This document shows positions 55,152 through 64,000 of a stretch of 64,000 nucleotides of DNA, in pieces. The notes beneath the pieces were generated by a model, which was not told the origin of the DNA, did not search any database, and saw only the letters and a program-made list of their open reading frames with translations. Source of the stretch: an uncultured Hyphomonas sp. (GTDB lineage Bacteria > Pseudomonadota > Alphaproteobacteria > Caulobacterales > Hyphomonadaceae). The DNA lies in NCBI RefSeq assembly GCF_963678195.1, contig NZ_OY782759.1, positions 558,001 through 622,000 of the forward strand, written 5' to 3'. Each line of letters begins with the position of its first letter. Position 1 is the stretch's first letter. Both the position numbers and the translations under genes were made by a program.

Positions 55152-56636
55152 ATGACCAAGCCTTCCCTGCCGCCGGGCGAGCACCGCCCGCAAGAGACAT
55201 TCCTCGCCGCCGCGAGCCATGAAATCCGCACGCCGCTGAACGGGATTCTCGGCACGGTGTCGCTGTTGCTGGAAACCGAACTGGAACCGGCCCAGCGGGA
55301 ATATGCCGAAGCCATCCGGCTGAGCGGCTCCCGTCTGCTCGATCTCCTGAACAATGTGCTCGATTATGCGCGCCTCGATGCTTCTGCCATCGAACTGGAA
55401 ACCGAGGCGTTCTGCCCGGTCCGGCTCGGCCGGGAAGTGATGGAGTTGCTGAGCCCGCGCGCCCATGCCGCCGGGCTGGACATTGCCGCGCGTGCCTCGG
55501 TCCTGCCGATGCCGTCCTATTCGGGCGATGCGGGCCGTATCCGCCAGATCCTGTTCAACCTCGTTGGCAATGCGCTGAAATTTACCGAAAGCGGCGCAGT
55601 CCTGCTCGACATCTGCGCGCATGAAGACGGGCTGGAATACCGGATCATCGACACTGGCCCCGGCATTGCGCCGGAAGATCGGGAGCGTCTGTTCGAGGCG
55701 TTCCGCCAGACCAGCCGGCAGGACGCCTACAAGGATGGCGGCGTTGGGCTTGGCCTTGCCATCGTCAAGCGCCTGACAGACCTGTTGGGCGGCCGGATCG
55801 AAGTCACCGGAGAGCCCGGTCTGGGCACCTGTTTTTCTGTCTTTCTCCCATTGAAGAGGGCAGACCTGCCGCCGACGCATGACCTGCCGGTTCTCGACGC
55901 CGTGGTGGGGATCGCGGGCCTGCCGCCGGCCACCTGCCTGTCGACCACGGCAGCCCTGATCAATGCCTCGGCCAGGCCTGTGCGGATCGATGTGTCGTCC
56001 GGCCATGTGCCGCCGGAGGTCGATGTGCTGCTGATCGGGGCGGAACAGCCGGAGGAAACGGTGCGCGCGCTCGCCCGAAAGGCACCGGCGCTCATTGTGC
56101 TGAGGCCGGAAGACCGGGGCGCCATTGCGCGCTTCAAGGCGATGGGATGCGCTGGCTGGCTGGTACGCCCGCTGAGAGCCTCGTCGCTGATCGAGCGCAT
56201 CCATGTTGTCAAAACGGGCGGCTTGCCGGTCGACGAGCCCGAAAAGCTGACAGGGGCCGGGCGCGTGCTGATCGCGGACGACAATCCGGTCAATGCGATG
56301 ATTGCACGGCGCGCCTTGGAATCGGCCGGATTTACCGTCACAGTCGCTTCAACAGGTATAGAAGCGCTGGAGGCCGCGAAGAGCATGAATCCCGCCCTGG
56401 TCCTGATGGATCTCCGCATGCCCGAAATGGATGGGTTCGAAGCCATGCGCCAGCTGCGCGCCGGCGGTTCGGACGTCCCGGTCATTGCGGTCTCCGCCGA
56501 AGTGAACGCCGACATCGAACGCCAGGCCAGGACGGCCGGGGCCAATGATGTCGTGGCCAAGCCGATCGAGCCTCAGGCCCTTCGGACCCTCGCGATCAGA
56601 TGGACTGGCGCTGCCGGAAAGGCCGGCGCTGCATGA
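55152..56636 (+). CDS. Soluble hybrid histidine kinase with pseudo-receiver and receiver domains
   Basis: The 494-residue protein has no sensor domain or membrane segment. The HisKA box ASHEIRTPLNG (His23) comes almost at once, then a HATPase domain with ILFNLVGNALKFT, DTGPGI and GVGLGLAIVKRL. A degenerate receiver (about residues 255-350) lacks the phospho-acceptor Asp. The final receiver has IADDNPVNAM, the phospho-acceptor Asp420 in LMDLRMPEMDG and a VAKPI end. HK plus pseudo-receiver plus receiver resembles Caulobacter ShkA without its PAS domain. ATG 55152 is chosen over TTG 55137. It overlaps the permease gene (ATGA). Confidence 0.85.
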   Translation: MTKPSLPPGEHRPQETFLAAASHEIRTPLNGILGTVSLLLETELEPAQREYAEAIRLSGSRLLDLLNNVLDYARLDASAIELETEAFCPVRLGREVMELLSPRAHAAGLDIAARASVLPMPSYSGDAGRIRQILFNLVGNALKFTESGAVLLDICAHEDGLEYRIIDTGPGIAPEDRERLFEAFRQTSRQDAYKDGGVGLGLAIVKRLTDLLGGRIEVTGEPGLGTCFSVFLPLKRADLPPTHDLPVLDAVVGIAGLPPATCLSTTAALINASARPVRIDVSSGHVPPEVDVLLIGAEQPEETVRALARKAPALIVLRPEDRGAIARFKAMGCAGWLVRPLRASSLIERIHVVKTGGLPVDEPEKLTGAGRVLIADDNPVNAMIARRALESAGFTVTVASTGIEALEAAKSMNPALVLMDLRMPEMDGFEAMRQLRAGGSDVPVIAVSAEVNADIERQARTAGANDVVAKPIEPQALRTLAIRWTGAAGKAGAA

Positions 56637-58375
56637 GCGGCAATGCCGCGCTTCCGGTGAAGAAGCCCTCCCGGGCGGCGCGCGCTTTCCGGGCCCTGAA
56701 AGACCGCCGCATGGCGGCGATGCTGATCCTCGCCTTCGCAGCCAGCATTCCCTATGGCGCCATTGTCGGCGTGCTGACAGCCTGGCTGACCCAGGAGGGG
56801 ATCGACACGGATACGATCGGCGTTCTTTCGCTCGTCGCCATCGGGTATTCGTTCAAATATCTCTGGGCGCCCTTGTTCCAGACGCCGCATGGCGTGCCGT
56901 TCATCCGCGTCGGCGGGCGGCGGTCCTGGCTGATCCTTTGCCAGGCTTCGATTGCTGTACTGCTGGCGGTGCTGGCCTTCTCCAACCCGCCGCAGAATAT
57001 CGGTCTGGTGGCGCTGATCTGTTTCGTGATCCTGATCCTCGGGCCCACGCATGACATTATCCTCGACGCCTGGCGGATCGAAGTGGCCCGGTCTGAAGAA
57101 GACAAGGACCTGATGTCGGCGCTTTATCAGTTCGGCTACAAGTCGGGCGGCTTCATCTCAGGTTTCGTTGCGCTGCTGGTGGCGGCGCGCGGCGGGTGGT
57201 CGGTCGCTTATGTGATGATGGCCGGTTTTGTCGGCCTGACCATTCTGGGCAGCCTGCTGGCGCCGGAGCCTGAATATAACAAGCACGAACACACGACGCG
57301 GCTCAGCTTCCTGCCATCCGTGCCGGGGCGGGAAGCCGCGCCGGCAGTGGCTTTCGTGGCGGCCTGCTGGGCGACGGCCTTTGTCATGATTGCTTCCTTT
57401 GCGGTCATGCGGCTCGGCTTCAATGCAGATATCTCCTCGCGCACTTTCGTGTCGGAGCAGGGGCCCATCATTGTCATCCTGACCGTGATCGTGCCGTCCG
57501 TCGTGGCGGCATTCCTGCTTGTCCGGAACAAGGGGGAGGCGGTCGATGCGCCGCTGTTTTCACCTGGTCAGAGCCGGCGCAGCAAGCTGGTCGCGACCCT
57601 GTTTCGCGCCATTTTCGACCCTCTGATGGACCTGATCTACCGCCTGCGCTGGTGGACGATTCTCGTGCTCGCCCTGGCGCTGACCTATCGCTTCACCGAT
57701 GCGGTCTGGGGCTCGTTCGCCTATCCGTTTTACCTGCGCGGCGATCTCGATGCGCTTGGCCATACGCTGGACGATGTGGCGATCGCCTCCAAATTCTTCG
57801 GCGTGATCGCGACCATTCTGGGCTCACTGATCGGGGCGACGCTGATCGCAACCATCGGCCGGATGCCGGTCTTTTTTATCGGCGGCGTCGTGGCGGCGGC
57901 GACGAACCTGCTTTATGCAGACCTGGCCCATGGGGCGCATGCCGTGGATGCCTTCCTGGCGGTGACCCATCTTGATGGGCCTTTGATCGCCTTTGCAGAC
58001 TTTGCGGCGAAGCTACAACCGCATGAAGTTGCCCTGCCGGCAGACCACAGCCAGCGGCTGGCCCGGCTGATGGTCACCATTTTTGCCGAGAACATTGCCG
58101 GCGGGTTCGCGCTGGTTGCCATGACGGCGTATCTGACTGCCGTGGTGAACCCGCGCTTTGCGGCGGTTCAGTATGCGCTGCTTGCCTCGCTGACCATGCT
58201 GATCGGGACGCTCGGCCGTCCCTGGCTGGGCGCGATGATCGAGACGAATGGCTTTTATCCGGTTTTCATTGTTACCTTCTGGCTGGGCGGCGTTGCAGTC
58301 CTGCTCAGCATAGTGGAATGGTGGCGACAGGCGCGTGTGGCGCGCATCGCAAAAGAAGGAGCTGTAAATGGATAG
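56633..58375 (+). CDS. AmpG-family muropeptide MFS permease
   Basis: The 580-residue protein has about 12-14 membrane helices. AmpG-type signatures are GVLTAWLTQEGIDTDTIGVLSLVAIGYSFKYLWAPLFQ near the start and LGPTHDIILDAWRIE, with the aspartates that matter in the family. AmpG imports anhydromuropeptides from cell-wall turnover for recycling. A loop of about 90 residues in the middle (around residues 420-470) is longer than usual. Start and stop overlap the kinase gene and the hdeD-like gene. The nearby BlaI/M56-M23 genes make a cell-wall link plausible. Confidence 0.85.
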   Translation: MSGNAALPVKKPSRAARAFRALKDRRMAAMLILAFAASIPYGAIVGVLTAWLTQEGIDTDTIGVLSLVAIGYSFKYLWAPLFQTPHGVPFIRVGGRRSWLILCQASIAVLLAVLAFSNPPQNIGLVALICFVILILGPTHDIILDAWRIEVARSEEDKDLMSALYQFGYKSGGFISGFVALLVAARGGWSVAYVMMAGFVGLTILGSLLAPEPEYNKHEHTTRLSFLPSVPGREAAPAVAFVAACWATAFVMIASFAVMRLGFNADISSRTFVSEQGPIIVILTVIVPSVVAAFLLVRNKGEAVDAPLFSPGQSRRSKLVATLFRAIFDPLMDLIYRLRWWTILVLALALTYRFTDAVWGSFAYPFYLRGDLDALGHTLDDVAIASKFFGVIATILGSLIGATLIATIGRMPVFFIGGVVAAATNLLYADLAHGAHAVDAFLAVTHLDGPLIAFADFAAKLQPHEVALPADHSQRLARLMVTIFAENIAGGFALVAMTAYLTAVVNPRFAAVQYALLASLTMLIGTLGRPWLGAMIETNGFYPVFIVTFWLGGVAVLLSIVEWWRQARVARIAKEGAVNG

Positions 58376-59466: not shown

Positions 59467-59576
59467 GGTCTTCGGTCTGCCATGAAATGACCTTATGCCT
59501 CCGGCTTGGCATGCCCGCGCTTTGACGGCAAAAAGCGATCAGTGGCCCCGTGCGGTCGCAGGATCAGGGGACCGGC

Positions 59577-60470
59577 ATGAAGCGAGCGACACTCGACCAG
59601 GAGACGGCGAATTTCGCCCTGGAACGCTCGATTGAGCGGCCCTGGTTCCGGAGCTTCATCACCGGCCTCATCATCTTCAATGCGGTGATCCTGGGTATCC
59701 TGACCTATCGGCATTCCCTGCCGGCGGAATTGGTTCTGACACTGGAGATCATGGACCATGGGATCACCTATGTGTTCGCAGTGGAGATCCTGCTGAAACT
59801 GGTGGTCTACCGGTTCCAGTTCTTCCGGCGCGGCTGGAACTGGTTCGACTTCATCGTCGTTGGCATTTCGCTGATTCCAGGGGGCGGGGCGTTCAGCGTC
59901 CTTCGGGCCTTGCGCGTCCTGCGGGTGCTGCGCCTCCTGCATGTTGTGCCGGTGATGCGCCGGATTACCGAGGCACTGCTGAAAGCCCTGCCGGGCATGG
60001 GTGCCATCGTCGCCGTGCTGGCGCTGGTGACCTATGTCGCGGCCGTGATGGCGACCAATATGTTCGGCAATACGGAAACCGAGGAAGTGCGCCAGCTCTT
60101 TGGCGACCTGCCGAGCTCGGCCCTGTCGCTGTTCCAGGTCATGACCATGGATGGCTGGCGGTTCGAAGTGATGCAGAAAGTCATCGATGACGGCCATCCG
60201 ATGGCGTGGGTGTTCTTCCTGATTTTCATCTTCGTGGCGAGCTTTGCCATCCTCAACCTGTTCATCGCGCTGGTCGTGGATTCACTGGCGGCAGAGCAGA
60301 AAACCCTTCTGGAAGAAGGGCTTGAGGATCTGGAGGAGGAGTTCGAGGAAGAGCGCGAAGAGGCCGACGATGCCCGTCATGAGATTCTGGCCGTTCTGAA
60401 GCAGTTGCAACAGGAGATGGCCGAGCTTAAAGCCGCCGTGGCGGCCCGCGACAGGCCGCCGGAGACCTGA
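59577..60470 (+). CDS. Bacterial voltage-gated cation channel (NaChBac/BacNav-like)
   Basis: The 297-residue protein is a single-domain six-helix ion channel. S4 carries four arginines at three-residue spacing in VLRALRVLRVLRLLHVVP. The pore reads FQVMTMDGW (Thr190-Trp194), in the place of FQVMTLESW in known bacterial sodium channels, so the key Glu is Asp192 and the Ser is Gly193. The C-terminal tail is a long, highly acidic coiled coil (EEGLEDLEEEFEEEREEADDARHEI and on), as in tetrameric BacNav channels. ATG 59577 follows AGGGG. An in-frame TTG at 59550 would add nine residues. Ion preference may differ from the sodium type. Confidence 0.88.
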   Translation: MKRATLDQETANFALERSIERPWFRSFITGLIIFNAVILGILTYRHSLPAELVLTLEIMDHGITYVFAVEILLKLVVYRFQFFRRGWNWFDFIVVGISLIPGGGAFSVLRALRVLRVLRLLHVVPVMRRITEALLKALPGMGAIVAVLALVTYVAAVMATNMFGNTETEEVRQLFGDLPSSALSLFQVMTMDGWRFEVMQKVIDDGHPMAWVFFLIFIFVASFAILNLFIALVVDSLAAEQKTLLEEGLEDLEEEFEEEREEADDARHEILAVLKQLQQEMAELKAAVAARDRPPET

Positions 60471-60547: not shown

Positions 60548-61264
60548 ATGAGCCTGTGGACGCGACTTCTTGAGGGCGGCAGACGCCTTTTTGATCCCGA
60601 CATCACGCATGACGACGAGCCTCGCGAGCCGGGGGAGGTTCCGTGCGCGCCGGACCCGAACGATGTGGGCTTTACTGCAGCGGTTGTTGGCCTCGGCGCC
60701 AAGCTGGCCAAGGCGGACGGCACCGTTTCCGACAAGGAAATCATGGTCTTCTCCCGTGTCTTCCGCGCCCCGCCGGAAGAGGCTGACAATGTGCGCCGCG
60801 TGTTCAATCTCGCCCGCCAGACGGTGCGGGGCTATGAAGGCTATGCGCGCCGGATCGGCCGGCGCTATCACGACCGGCCCTGCCTGCTGGAAGGCGTGAT
60901 GGACGGCCTGTTCCAGATCGCGGGCGCTGATGGCGTCATTACACAGGACGAGCTGATCTATCTGCAGAATGTGTCGGAGGCGTTCGGCTTCAGCGAAGCC
61001 ACCTTCCGCCGGATCAAGGCCGCCCATATGGGCCCTGACCGGAACGATCCCTATCACGTGCTGGGCGTGGCGCATGACGCCGACTTTGGTGTCATTCGCG
61101 CGGCCTATCGCCGGCTGATGGCGGATCACCATCCAGACCGAGTGATCCAGATGGGCGCGCCGCGCGAATTCGAAGACGCCGCCCACGCCAAAGCTGCCGC
61201 GATTACAGCCGCTTATGCCCAGATCCGCACCGAGCGGGGCCTGCTGATCCGGCAGGACTCCTGA
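60548..61264 (+). CDS. TerB-DnaJ (DjlA-like) co-chaperone
   Basis: The 238-residue protein has a TerB-like helical domain (about residues 35-160, with GLGAKLAKADGTVSDKEI and FQIAGADGVITQDELIYLQ) and a C-terminal J domain: PYHVLGVAHDADFGVIRAAYRRLMADHHPDRV, including the HPD motif. This is the DjlA layout, but the N-terminal membrane helix of enteric DjlA is missing, so it should be cytosolic. It is expected to stimulate DnaK. Confidence 0.87.
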   Translation: MSLWTRLLEGGRRLFDPDITHDDEPREPGEVPCAPDPNDVGFTAAVVGLGAKLAKADGTVSDKEIMVFSRVFRAPPEEADNVRRVFNLARQTVRGYEGYARRIGRRYHDRPCLLEGVMDGLFQIAGADGVITQDELIYLQNVSEAFGFSEATFRRIKAAHMGPDRNDPYHVLGVAHDADFGVIRAAYRRLMADHHPDRVIQMGAPREFEDAAHAKAAAITAAYAQIRTERGLLIRQDS

Positions 61265-61686: not shown

Positions 61687-61720
61687 ACGGCCCGTTTCAC
61701 GCGGGCCGTTTGCTTTTCTT
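61687..61720 (+). terminator. Intrinsic terminator after the small membrane protein gene
   Basis: ACGGCCCG (61687-61694) and CGGGCCGT (61702-61709) form an 8-bp stem with a 7-base loop, followed by TTGCTTTTCTT. This is a classical rho-independent terminator. Confidence 0.75.
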
Positions 61721-61730
61721 CGCATGTCAC

Positions 61731-61759
61731 TTGACGCGAGTTCGCTACAAATGTAGTGA
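61731..61759 (+). promoter_or_regulatory. Putative sigma-70 promoter of the blaI-like operon
   Basis: TTGACG (61731-61736) and TAGTGA (61754-61759) are spaced by 17 bases, 40 bp before the repressor start. The -10 element is a weak match. It overlaps the palindromic operator, so bound repressor would block RNA polymerase. Confidence 0.45.
61745..61756. promoter_or_regulatory. BlaI/CopY-type operator
   Basis: CTACA-AA-TGTAG is a palindrome with the TACA...TGTA core used by BlaI/MecI/CopY repressors. It lies in the spacer and -10 region of the probable promoter, 42 bp before the repressor gene, which suggests self-repression. Confidence 0.6.
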
Positions 61760-61798
61760 GTCGGTGACCTTGATAGTGATCCCGGCACAGGTGAAGCC

Positions 61799-62185
61799 AT
61801 GTCCCAGCCCAATTCCTCCGAACTTATCGTGTTGAAGCATCTCTGGTCCGCCGGGCCGCAAAGTGCGCGCGAAGTGCATCAGGCCGTCGGCCCGGCGCAG
61901 GGATGGAAGCCGTCCACCACGCGCACCGTGATCGCCCGGATGGAAGAGAAGGGGTGGGTGGACCGCAAGGACATGCATGGCATGGCCGTCTTTTCCGCCG
62001 TGCTGGACCGGACCGCCACGCTGGGCGGGCTCGTCCGCCACCTTGCCAGACAGGTCCTCGACATGGACGGGCCGATCCCGGCGGCGCTGTTTGCCGAAAG
62101 CCCGCACCTGTCCGATGCCGAGCTCGACGAGCTGGACGCCATCATCAATGCCGCCGAGGATGAGACGAAAGGGGGCAAGTCATGA
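61799..62185 (+). CDS. BlaI/MecI/CopY-family transcriptional repressor
   Basis: The 128-residue protein is a BlaI-type winged-helix repressor: ELIVLKHLWSAGPQSAREVHQAV, then WKPSTTRTVIARMEEKGWVDRKD, with a C-terminal dimer region of helices (LDDAE-like LSDAELDELDAIINAAEDE). Such repressors are inactivated by cleavage after an M56 protease of the BlaR1 class senses a signal. The next gene encodes that type of protease and overlaps this one by ATGA. A palindromic operator lies just upstream. Confidence 0.9.
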   Translation: MSQPNSSELIVLKHLWSAGPQSAREVHQAVGPAQGWKPSTTRTVIARMEEKGWVDRKDMHGMAVFSAVLDRTATLGGLVRHLARQVLDMDGPIPAALFAESPHLSDAELDELDAIINAAEDETKGGKS

Positions 62186-64000
62186 GCCCGCTGGGTCTGG
62201 TCCTTCTCGTTCTTGGCTGGAGCGCGGCTGTCTGGGCCGGTGCCAGCCTGATCTGCCGGAAACAGCCTTCGCCGAAAGTTGCGCAGGCGATCTGGCGCGG
62301 CGCGGCGCTTGCGTTGCTAGCGCCCTTTGCTGCGGCTCTGGTCGTGCCGGGCTTCTCCGTAGAGGTCGACGTTCCGCTGGGCGAGCTGCCCTTGCTGGAG
62401 CCGGTCATGATCACCCCGCAGGATGGCGTTGCCATGCCCGCGCCCGCCGCCGGGGTCAAACTGCCGGACATTGGCACGCTGATTATCTGGACTGTTGTCG
62501 CAGGCTGGGGCGTACGCCTCCTGCTCTGGGGGATCAGCCAGCTCCGTCTGCAGCGGCTGAAGGCGCGCGCCATGCGCACACACCGTCCGATCGGCCATTG
62601 GGCGGAAGCCGTCGGCCTCGCCCGCACGCCGCGCGTGTTTGTCATTCCGCGCGGCGCCCCATTCCTGGCCGGTATCCTGAAACGCGCCATCTATGTGCCC
62701 GCCGCCCTGATCCGCGGGGGAGGGGCGAGCGAAGTGGTCGTCCACGAACTGGTTCACCTGAAACGCGGGGACCTGATCGCCAGACCCCTGGAACGGATCG
62801 TGGCGGACCTTTTCTGGTTGTCCCCCTTTGCCTGGTGGATTCGCGGGCAGCTCGACTTCTGGCGCGAAGCGGTTGTCGATGAAGAGACCGTCGAATTGAC
62901 AGGCGACCCGATCGCCTATGCCCGGACCCTGACGTCTGCTGCGCGCATCTCGCGCGATGAGGCGGTGCTGCCTGTGGCGGCATTCATCCTCCGGAAGAAA
63001 GGAACCCTGAAGATGCGTCTCAACGAATTGCTGACAGAAAAACCCCGCCCGCGCCGCATGGGGCTGGTGCTCGCCGCCGCCCTGATGTGCGCCGCCCCGC
63101 TGGCCGTTGCGCAGGGCATGCTGATCAAGGGGGCCGCTGCCGTGCCCGGCGAAACCCTGTTCTACAGCCACGCCGTTCTGGACAAGGCCACGCTGACCAG
63201 CGCGTTCGGGGAAAGGGTCGACCCGTTTACCAAGAAGACTGCCACACACCGCGGGGTAGACCTTGCTGCCGCACGCGGCACGCCGGCTTACGCGCCTGCC
63301 GACGGAACAGTCATCTTCGCAGGTCAAAAGGCGGGCTATGGCAATGTCGTTGAATTGATGGTCGGCAACGACACGGTGCTGCGTTTCGGCCAGCTGGATA
63401 CGCTGTCGGTGGAACAAGGCCAGTTGTTGAAAGCCGGTGATGAAATTGGCGGGGTTGGTACTTCCGGGCGCTCCACCGGACCTCATCTCCACCTCGAAGT
63501 CTGGCGTGATGGTGAGCTAACTGATCCGCAAACGGAAGAGGGGCTCGTCCTGGCGGACAGCCTGTTCATCATGTCGAGTTCGGGAGCAAAAGCGCCAGCG
63601 GCACCGGTTGCGGCTCTGTCGCCGGAGCGCCCGGAAGCGTGCGTCAAGGCAGCGCTATGGTCCCCCAAGGGCGCGGGTCATGCGGATTGGTTGGCGCGGC
63701 GGGAAGCGGGGCGTGAGGCGAACCGTCAGGCCGGGGTGGTTTTCGATACGGGCTCCATGCCCTATGCCGTGTCGCCGCCTGCGCCCTATTATCCGGCAGA
63801 GGCTGTCGAGAAGGGCTTGAGCGGATCTTGCGAAGTCCTGTTCGATCTGGGACCGGACGGCATACCGAAAAACATGGCGGCGGTCTGTTCCGACCCGGTC
63901 TTCGAAGACTCTGCAGCTGAACTGAGAGGCGCCCGTTTTGCACCCATCAACGGCCCGGACGGAAAACCCGCAGAGGTGACGGGACTGACCTATCCTATCG
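62182..64000 (+). CDS. M56 (BlaR1-type) metalloprotease fused to M23 endopeptidase and TonB-like domain (3' end beyond window)
   Basis: The frame is open from the ATG at 62182 to the window end (606 codons), so it is partial. Residues 1-180 hold about three membrane helices. The M56 zinc motif HELVH is at residues 188-192, with a downstream EAVVDEETV. After a fourth helix near residue 300 comes an M23 (LytM) domain with complete ligands: His356 and Asp360 in HRGVD and His435/His437 in PHLHLEV. From about residue 530 the sequence YPAEAVEKGLSGSCEVLFDLGPDG begins a TonB C-terminal-type domain. BlaR1 relatives normally carry a penicillin-binding sensor domain instead. It is coupled to the BlaI-type repressor (ATGA). 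Confidence 0.85.
   Translation, partial: MSPLGLVLLVLGWSAAVWAGASLICRKQPSPKVAQAIWRGAALALLAPFAAALVVPGFSVEVDVPLGELPLLEPVMITPQDGVAMPAPAAGVKLPDIGTLIIWTVVAGWGVRLLLWGISQLRLQRLKARAMRTHRPIGHWAEAVGLARTPRVFVIPRGAPFLAGILKRAIYVPAALIRGGGASEVVVHELVHLKRGDLIARPLERIVADLFWLSPFAWWIRGQLDFWREAVVDEETVELTGDPIAYARTLTSAARISRDEAVLPVAAFILRKKGTLKMRLNELLTEKPRPRRMGLVLAAALMCAAPLAVAQGMLIKGAAAVPGETLFYSHAVLDKATLTSAFGERVDPFTKKTATHRGVDLAAARGTPAYAPADGTVIFAGQKAGYGNVVELMVGNDTVLRFGQLDTLSVEQGQLLKAGDEIGGVGTSGRSTGPHLHLEVWRDGELTDPQTEEGLVLADSLFIMSSSGAKAPAAPVAALSPERPEACVKAALWSPKGAGHADWLARREAGREANRQAGVVFDTGSMPYAVSPPAPYYPAEAVEKGLSGSCEVLFDLGPDGIPKNMAAVCSDPVFEDSAAELRGARFAPINGPDGKPAEVTGLTYPI

Follow-up and report, generated by a model that had tools for sequence, protein, structure and literature searches.

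How Gram-negative bacteria gauge the state of their cell wall is still poorly understood, and switches of the BlaR1 type are best known for beta-lactams. In the BlaR1/MecR1–BlaI/MecI systems (family M56 in MEROPS), the gene of a BlaI-type repressor overlaps that of an M56 sensor-protease, and the periplasmic sensor is a penicillin-binding domain. According to an excerpt of PMC7593790, the BlaR1/MecR1 sensor domains are similar to class-D beta-lactamases but deacylate considerably more slowly (the text prints 'deacetylation'). A passage of PMC3305447 adds that a peptidoglycan dipeptide at millimolar concentration displaces BlaI/MecI from DNA. Here, an operon of this build is described from the end of a 64,000-nucleotide window (the whole stretch of DNA that was analyzed, contig positions 558001-622000) of a Hyphomonas sp., a marine member of a genus of budding bacteria with a genome of 3.67 Mb on a single contig. 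The sensor-protease joins M56, M23 and TonB_C parts in 612 amino acids (62182..64020, + strand; the stop codon ends 20 nt outside the window). Sequence comparison gives good support for an M23 ectodomain that keeps its zinc ligands and lacks one catalytic histidine. We put the chance that the operon is a BlaI/M56 proteolytic switch with a peptidoglycan-type, zinc-binding and probably non-cleaving M23 receptor at roughly one half.

The likeness to BlaR1 is found throughout the protease core. Peptidase_M56 (PF05569) matches residues 24-281 with 57.5 bits (cut-off 31). The zinc motif HELVH (residues 188-192; 62743..62757, +) is intact, as originally predicted, and the third zinc ligand Glu229 (62866-62868, +) follows His192 by 37 residues, the identical spacing to that of BlaR1 (H205-E242). 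His188, Glu189, His192 and Glu229 are present in 58/58 sensors. Hydropathy peaks at residues 6-24, 42-60, 97-115 and 297-315, with inside-positive charge, predict three membrane helices before the protease domain and one after it, which gives four helices as in BlaR1. The ectodomain, on the other hand, is M23 and TonB_C and not a penicillin-binding domain, for which no Pfam match was obtained in the sensor at E up to 1. The scores of the curated BlaR1/MecR1 models lie below their cut-offs (NF000326, 20.8 bits, cut-off 400; NF033109, 15 bits, cut-off 1200). The original prediction, a BlaI/M56 pair whose periplasmic domain is not a beta-lactam sensor, agrees with these results.

All three domains score above their Pfam cut-offs in one open frame, again as predicted, and extension of the sequence past 64000 placed the stop at 64020 with no earlier stop. 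No stop or frameshift separates the M56 and M23 parts. Many genomes of the genus and the family contain relatives fused in one frame; thus, the fusion is not a sequencing artefact. Such proteins presumably carry the NCBI label 'M23/M56 family metallopeptidase'. The fusion as such is already known and not undescribed as had been supposed: a section of the 2022 M23 review PMC9662197 names M56 among the catalytic domains found with M23, which together make up under 1% of hits. Searches of open-licence PMC papers turned up nothing on a signalling role, the histidine loss or a cassette exchange of M56-M23 proteins.

The M23 domain and its catalytic site

The M23 domain (residues 355-449; 63244..63528, +) is predicted to be periplasmic and matches Peptidase_M23 with 99.0 bits, above the cut-off. 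It has the fold, the zinc ligands and the HxH motif of M23/LytM endopeptidases (LytM, MepM, ShyA, Pgp3). The zinc ligands are His356, Asp360 and His437. These three had been named correctly in the original prediction, but the fourth ligand listed there, His435, is the first histidine of the HxH motif and belongs to the catalytic residues. M23 enzymes have two non-ligand histidines, the first of HxH and one located about 30 residues earlier (PMC9662197, in part). The earlier one, in the YxHL motif, corresponds to His260 of LytM and is replaced by Gln404 in the sensor (codon CAG; 63391..63393, +), a point that the original prediction does not raise. It is this replacement, together with the fusion to M56, that sets the sensor apart from LytM, MepM, ShyA and Pgp3. 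In an excerpt of PMC6978369, the two histidines of Campylobacter Pgp3 (His216 and His247) are described as strictly conserved and as part of the catalytic core. Gln404 and His435 are 31 residues apart, as are His216 and His247, and the Gln404 column lands on the catalytic histidine when aligned by profile to M23 enzymes of solved structure.

The zinc and HxH positions read H, D, H, H in 54/54 fused family sensors. The catalytic column of these sensors contains 49 Gln, 3 Ser, 1 Arg and 1 His. Accordingly, the catalytic histidine is absent in 53/54 fused family homologues, and it is kept in 113/113 standalone control M23 stretches (Fisher p 3e-43, calculated with all 114 controls and with relatedness ignored). 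The original prediction left open a peptidoglycan-cleaving or -binding domain; with this distribution, the cleaving variant is not supported. Arg401, three residues before Gln404, is Arg in 46/54 sensors. By spacing it takes the place of Pgp3 Gln213, which contacts meso-diaminopimelic acid (mDAP) in simulation according to part of PMC6978369. An Arg before the YxHL motif is also present in ShyA.

The 54 sensors comprise 28 of 30 loci from a first fetch and 26 of 32 from a second one, with the window gene counted once (L003). Omitted from the first fetch were L019 (contig end) and L026 (without M23), and from the second L164, L165 and L181 (no M23 found), L169 and L170 (pieces, both with Gln) and L180 (standalone, used as a control). 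Duplicate loci as well as L065 and L070 (same gene as L020) were also dropped, and some matching genomes (e.g. G006, G021-G025, G082) were left unfetched. The 114 control stretches derive from 110 loci without an M56 match and were selected for their likeness to the sensor profile (81 from one further search, 28 from a class-wide search, 4 from the second and 1 from the first family fetch). Three stretches without the HxxxD residues (L072, L076 and L092), which are second open reading frames (ORFs) of loci already giving a control, were discarded. All 114 controls have His; one of them, L111, is a distant fusion missed by the M56 profile, which leaves 113 standalone stretches. Four of these are encoded right behind a sensor gene and correspond to a complete M23 domain with a signal-peptide-like N-terminus.

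A tree of M23 domains (117 rows, 126 columns; control rows halved, catalytic column kept) is too poorly resolved to count histidine losses; it hints at a separate loss in the g7 sensors, which is not relied on. Because M23 entries take up the Foldseek and VIA lists, the lack of other folds in them is uninformative. In the sensors of genus g10, some 200 or more additional residues separate M56 from M23.

The periplasmic half in related genomes

Comparison of species representatives gives good support for the periplasmic half being an exchangeable cassette in Hyphomonas. The predicted cassette consists of M23, linker, TonB_C and a 98-aa putative lipoprotein gene (63150..~64330, +, past the window end). 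Its left edge lies at ~63150-63200, just after helix 4, and its right edge at ~64330, after the accessory gene. Outside the cassette, the mean identity to genomes G055, G056 and G040 is 94.4, 94.4 and 89.7%, respectively, with minima of 84, 83 and 79% (100-bp bins; 171 overlapping outer bins per genome, window 56700 to 66450). The inner 21 bins have means of 59.2, 57.9 and 57.5%. Compared to G055, the synonymous divergence (dS) jumps within the one gene from 0.145 in M56 to 2.28 in M23.

The trees of the two parts differ accordingly. In the M56 tree the window falls together with G040, G055 and G056 (100/100); in the M23 tree it falls with G060 (100/100), and G056 pairs with G049 (100/100). 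Approximately unbiased (AU) tests, with groups picked in view of earlier results, reject the exchanged groupings (p values of 0.0059, 2e-74 and 0.0005). G060 has the M23 type and the lipoprotein in common with the window, but not the TonB_C segment, whereas G049 has the TonB_C segment in common and not M23. Thus, pieces of the cassette recombine separately. Within types, the ratio of nonsynonymous to synonymous divergence (dN/dS) is 0.051-0.204.

The sensor is matched in 22/42 Hyphomonas genomes at E 1e-150 or better. Eight Hyphomonas genomes that lack a close match to the sensor were checked. In six of them the site is empty: genes for a TerB-DnaJ fusion protein, a 92-aa protein and phosphoribosyl pyrophosphate (PRPP) synthetase follow in this order, and neither the repressor nor the sensor has a match between them; in the remaining 2/8 only the PRPP synthetase was seen. 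In G058, a sensor remnant (L169:1653-2153, -; an M23 piece with Gln and no M56 match) lies near the same flanking genes.

In a survey of Alphaproteobacteria with an M56 profile, 19/385 genomes had a match at E 1e-12. A BlaI-like ORF was found in 22/22 surveyed M56 loci and M23 solely in two Hyphomonas sensors; thus, the repressor-protease core is ordinary and the outer domain is the variable part. The C-terminal part of these alphaproteobacterial BlaI/M56 sensors differs from protein to protein. In 20/22 survey loci it is without M23, unlike in the window, and in L188 it ends, by eye, in a TonB_C-like stretch. A preceding class-wide search with a full-length profile gave no information: three candidates were scored per genome, and these places were taken by standalone M23 proteins. 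It was repeated with the M56-only profile. A second BlaI/M56 pair is present in the same genome (L004:4349-6711; G000:C1 about 3203348-3205710). Its C-terminal part is without M23 or TonB_C and has a weak Apolipoprotein/coiled-coil-like match alone.

Repressor, operator and the proposed switch

The repressor (128 aa; 61799..62185, +) belongs to the BlaI/MecI/CopY type (Penicillinase_R, PF03965, 71.2 bits, cut-off 22.6), and its gene overlaps the sensor gene by 4 nt (ATGA), in line with the original prediction. In an alignment to MecI, Phe98 coincides with Phe102 of BlaI/MecI, the P1' residue of the BlaR1 cut in BlaI. The proposed search for homologues and their repressor neighbours found M56-M23 fusions in many genomes, and Phe98 is present in 59/59 repressors. 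These counts, and those of the operator, cover 59 of 61 loci: the script picked no repressor for L020 and L111, which do have one on separate inspection (L020 also contains the core TACAAATGTA).

TACAnnTGTA-type operators are a trait of the BlaI/MecI/CopY family. The palindrome CTACAAATGTAG (61745..61756, +) lies in front of the operon where it had been predicted, and a core of this type is found at the repressor start in 46/59 loci (search range: 300 nt before the called start to 80 nt after it). In 6 of these 46 loci the site is located 15-32 nt inside the called ORF, suggesting a later true start. The form taken as the repressor site, CTACAnnTGTAG, has a single genomic occurrence, and the exact 12-mer CTACANNTGTAG is found once in the 3.67-Mb genome (six copies with one mismatch). 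The core TACANNTGTA has 3 genomic copies compared to 47 for a reversed control. The operon is very likely autoregulated. A candidate -35 element (TTGACG; 61731..61736, +) was read from the sequence; a sigma-70 scan of the operon front gave no full promoter match.

From these data we infer the ligand, the absence of hydrolysis, the signal relay and the repressor cleavage as follows. At rest, the repressor would occupy CTACAnnTGTAG and silence its own operon (repressor, sensor and accessory gene). After three N-terminal membrane helices, the M56 gluzincin domain of the sensor would lie in the cytoplasm; helix 4 would then lead to the M23 and TonB_C domains in the periplasm. A stem or cross-link of peptidoglycan would be bound by M23 but not turned over, because the zinc site (and the groove Arg in 46/54) is kept and one of two catalytic histidines is lost. 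Occupancy, or its loss, would pass via helix 4 to M56, which would cut the repressor before Phe98 and derepress the operon. The output would probably be the accessory gene, here a putative lipoprotein and in some relatives a complete M23 enzyme; further targets with a short operator core are possible. A wall-hydrolase fold would apparently have become a receptor by the trick of BlaR1/MecR1, whose ectodomain likewise derives from an enzyme with impaired turnover: the binding site is kept and turnover is lost. The idea lends itself to direct testing, given the operator, the natural variants that have or lack M23 and the domains swapped in nature between sister species. The circuit outlined in the original prediction, which reads the cell wall and not a drug, is thereby partly supported. 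According to a passage of PMC10945521, H. neptunium has a weakly cross-linked peptidoglycan.

Several observations weigh against this mechanism. Gln404 by itself is no proof of lost activity. The catalytic histidine is kept in L168 (394-2340, G092; RFAHL), the sole case of 54, and in M56-M23 proteins of Aliikangiella, Duganella and Croceivirga. The latter have a repressor-like gene directly in front (in Croceivirga by eye, with an M56 part assigned from a 25%-identity match and the HExxH motif); thus, the M56-M23 architecture does not require the loss. Residue 394, His in 43/47 rows of alignment A2, is Val in the sensor, so the groove is changed at more than one place. The operator core is missing in 13/59 loci, namely the six g7 loci fetched, L075 and L102 from outside the family, L021, L034, L156, L161 and L168 (with just 81 nt searchable). 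The two other core copies of the genome are located directly upstream of genes that are unrelated to the wall by eye. One, TTACACGTGTAA (L068:3763-3774), lies ~20 nt before a 794-aa phosphoketolase-like gene on the minus strand, and the other, TACATTTGTA (L069:4247-4256), 24 nt before the ATG of a dehydrogenase-like gene. The operator is therefore perhaps less specific than the 12-mer count suggests, and either site may be an additional target, for this BlaI protein or for the second one. Finally, a receptor whose self ligand is constant would not be expected to have its ectodomain exchanged among sister species, and the domain identities of g3 and g7 gave no clear cassette swap.

Most likely, the receptor reads peptidoglycan peptides, and a protein partner is less likely. 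In the latter case M23 would be a docking module comparable to the amidase-activating LytM domains of EnvC and NlpD. The partner could be an amidase or the lipoprotein encoded downstream, but also a TonB-dependent receptor or a wall hydrolase of foreign origin. EnvC and NlpD do share with the sensor the M23 fold, the lost catalysis and the regulatory use. However, excerpts on them describe these proteins without catalytic residues and/or zinc, and the regulatory M23 proteins treated in a passage of PMC10945521 have lost metal-binding residues. The zinc site of the sensor is complete, and its residues are kept in 54/54 sensors. Together with the groove Arg401 (46/54), this points to a retained substrate site and makes docking rather unlikely, if still a serious alternative. 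The vertebrate M23 relative LECT2 also keeps zinc; unlike the sensor, it is a secreted animal protein.

The cassette exchange may be given more weight. The locus would then be a polymorphic receptor islet, in which a constant repressor-protease core is combined with an interchangeable, non-cleaving M23 and TonB_C cassette and a cognate secreted or lipoprotein partner. The cassette would be swapped because the ligand varies, be it the chemistry of the wall, a wall hydrolase of rivals or a phage lysin. The agr and comQXPA specificity loci, which use two-component kinases and peptide pheromones, offer a resemblance only, i.e. a constant intracellular half and an exchangeable receptor half with its neighbouring gene. 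If true, the islet would work like such pheromone loci with a disabled wall hydrolase as the receptor, but we consider this unlikely.

Also unlikely is an M23 domain that tolerates Gln and still acts as an endopeptidase. The protein would then be a self-regulated, membrane-anchored wall hydrolase whose M56 part senses something else. The intact zinc site and HxH histidine, as well as the histidine kept in L168 and in the fusions of three other bacteria, are compatible with activity, but PMC6978369 counts the lost residue among those that are strictly conserved and central to catalysis, and it is missing in 0/113 standalone control stretches. An ectodomain that reports periplasmic zinc or another metal is very improbable. 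Both domains do have zinc sites and BlaI-type repressors include the copper-responsive CopY, but the conserved substrate groove would not be needed for such a sensor and the CopY model TIGR02698 scores the repressor with 40.9 bits, far below its cut-off of 121.95. Passive decay of a functionless fused domain is extremely improbable: a natural sensor without M23 (L181) and the mere remnant in G058 (L169) exist, but dN/dS within types is low, the zinc residues are invariant and the replacement hits one and the same residue, with Gln in most cases.

Accessory and neighbouring genes

The TonB_C-like domain (residues 533-608; 63778..64000 within the window, +) is located C-terminal to M56-M23 and matches PF03544 with 37.9 bits (cut-off 24.6). 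TIGR01352 scores this region with 15.9 bits, below its cut-off of 27.1. In the relatives L006 (22.5 bits) and L181 (21.1 bits) the domain remains under the Pfam cut-off, and several fused relatives lack this end. L181 (1854-3281, -; Hyphomonas G043) combines M56 with the TonB_C-like end and has no M23.

The sensor gene is followed, again with a 4-nt overlap, by the putative lipoprotein gene (98 aa; 64017-64313, outside the window), whose Pfam matches are all under cut-off. Beyond it, the PRPP synthetase gene lies on the opposite strand. Accessory genes vary among relatives and encode the lipoprotein, a 297-304-aa unknown protein or both, or no such ORF is listed. For the accessory proteins of ~300 aa, no Pfam match was found at E up to 1. 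In G056, a gene for a 297-aa accessory protein (L211:7622-8515) is located behind the sensor gene, with similar genes in G040 and G049; its motif ILFGDYHGT is reminiscent of ChaN-like proteins. The sensor, the repressor, the lipoprotein and the L211 protein have no match in the PADLOC anti-phage database at E 0.01, and the sensor has none on plasmids at E 1e-20. No beta-lactamase or penicillin-binding protein gene was seen in the operon. Outside the family, the Duganella sacchari fusion (L102:3410-7100) has an intact catalytic histidine and a BlaI-like gene in front; 5 nt past it begins a 705-aa ORF that is TonB-dependent-receptor-like by eye.

Upstream, the order is 92-aa gene, hairpin, operator, repressor, sensor gene and lipoprotein gene. 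The terminator-like hairpin (61687..61709, +; tail TTGCTTTTCT; 1 found compared to 0.2 expected from shuffles) separates the 92-aa gene from the operon. A link to an AmpG-type permease 4 kb upstream, suggested by the original prediction, is not supported. A transporter-type gene is present there (56600-58375); its end lies 3.4 kb upstream of the repressor, it scores as MFS_1/Acatn and it has no exact operator copy (the 12-mer occurs once in the genome). The nearest listed site, a copy with 2 mismatches at window 56350, is at chance level because the genome contains 318 matches at <=2 mismatches. Between the permease and the 92-aa gene lie an Ion_trans-family channel (59550-60470, 154 bits), possibly a bacterial voltage-gated channel, and the TerB-DnaJ fusion protein (60548-61264) that is kept at the empty site in 6/8 relatives.

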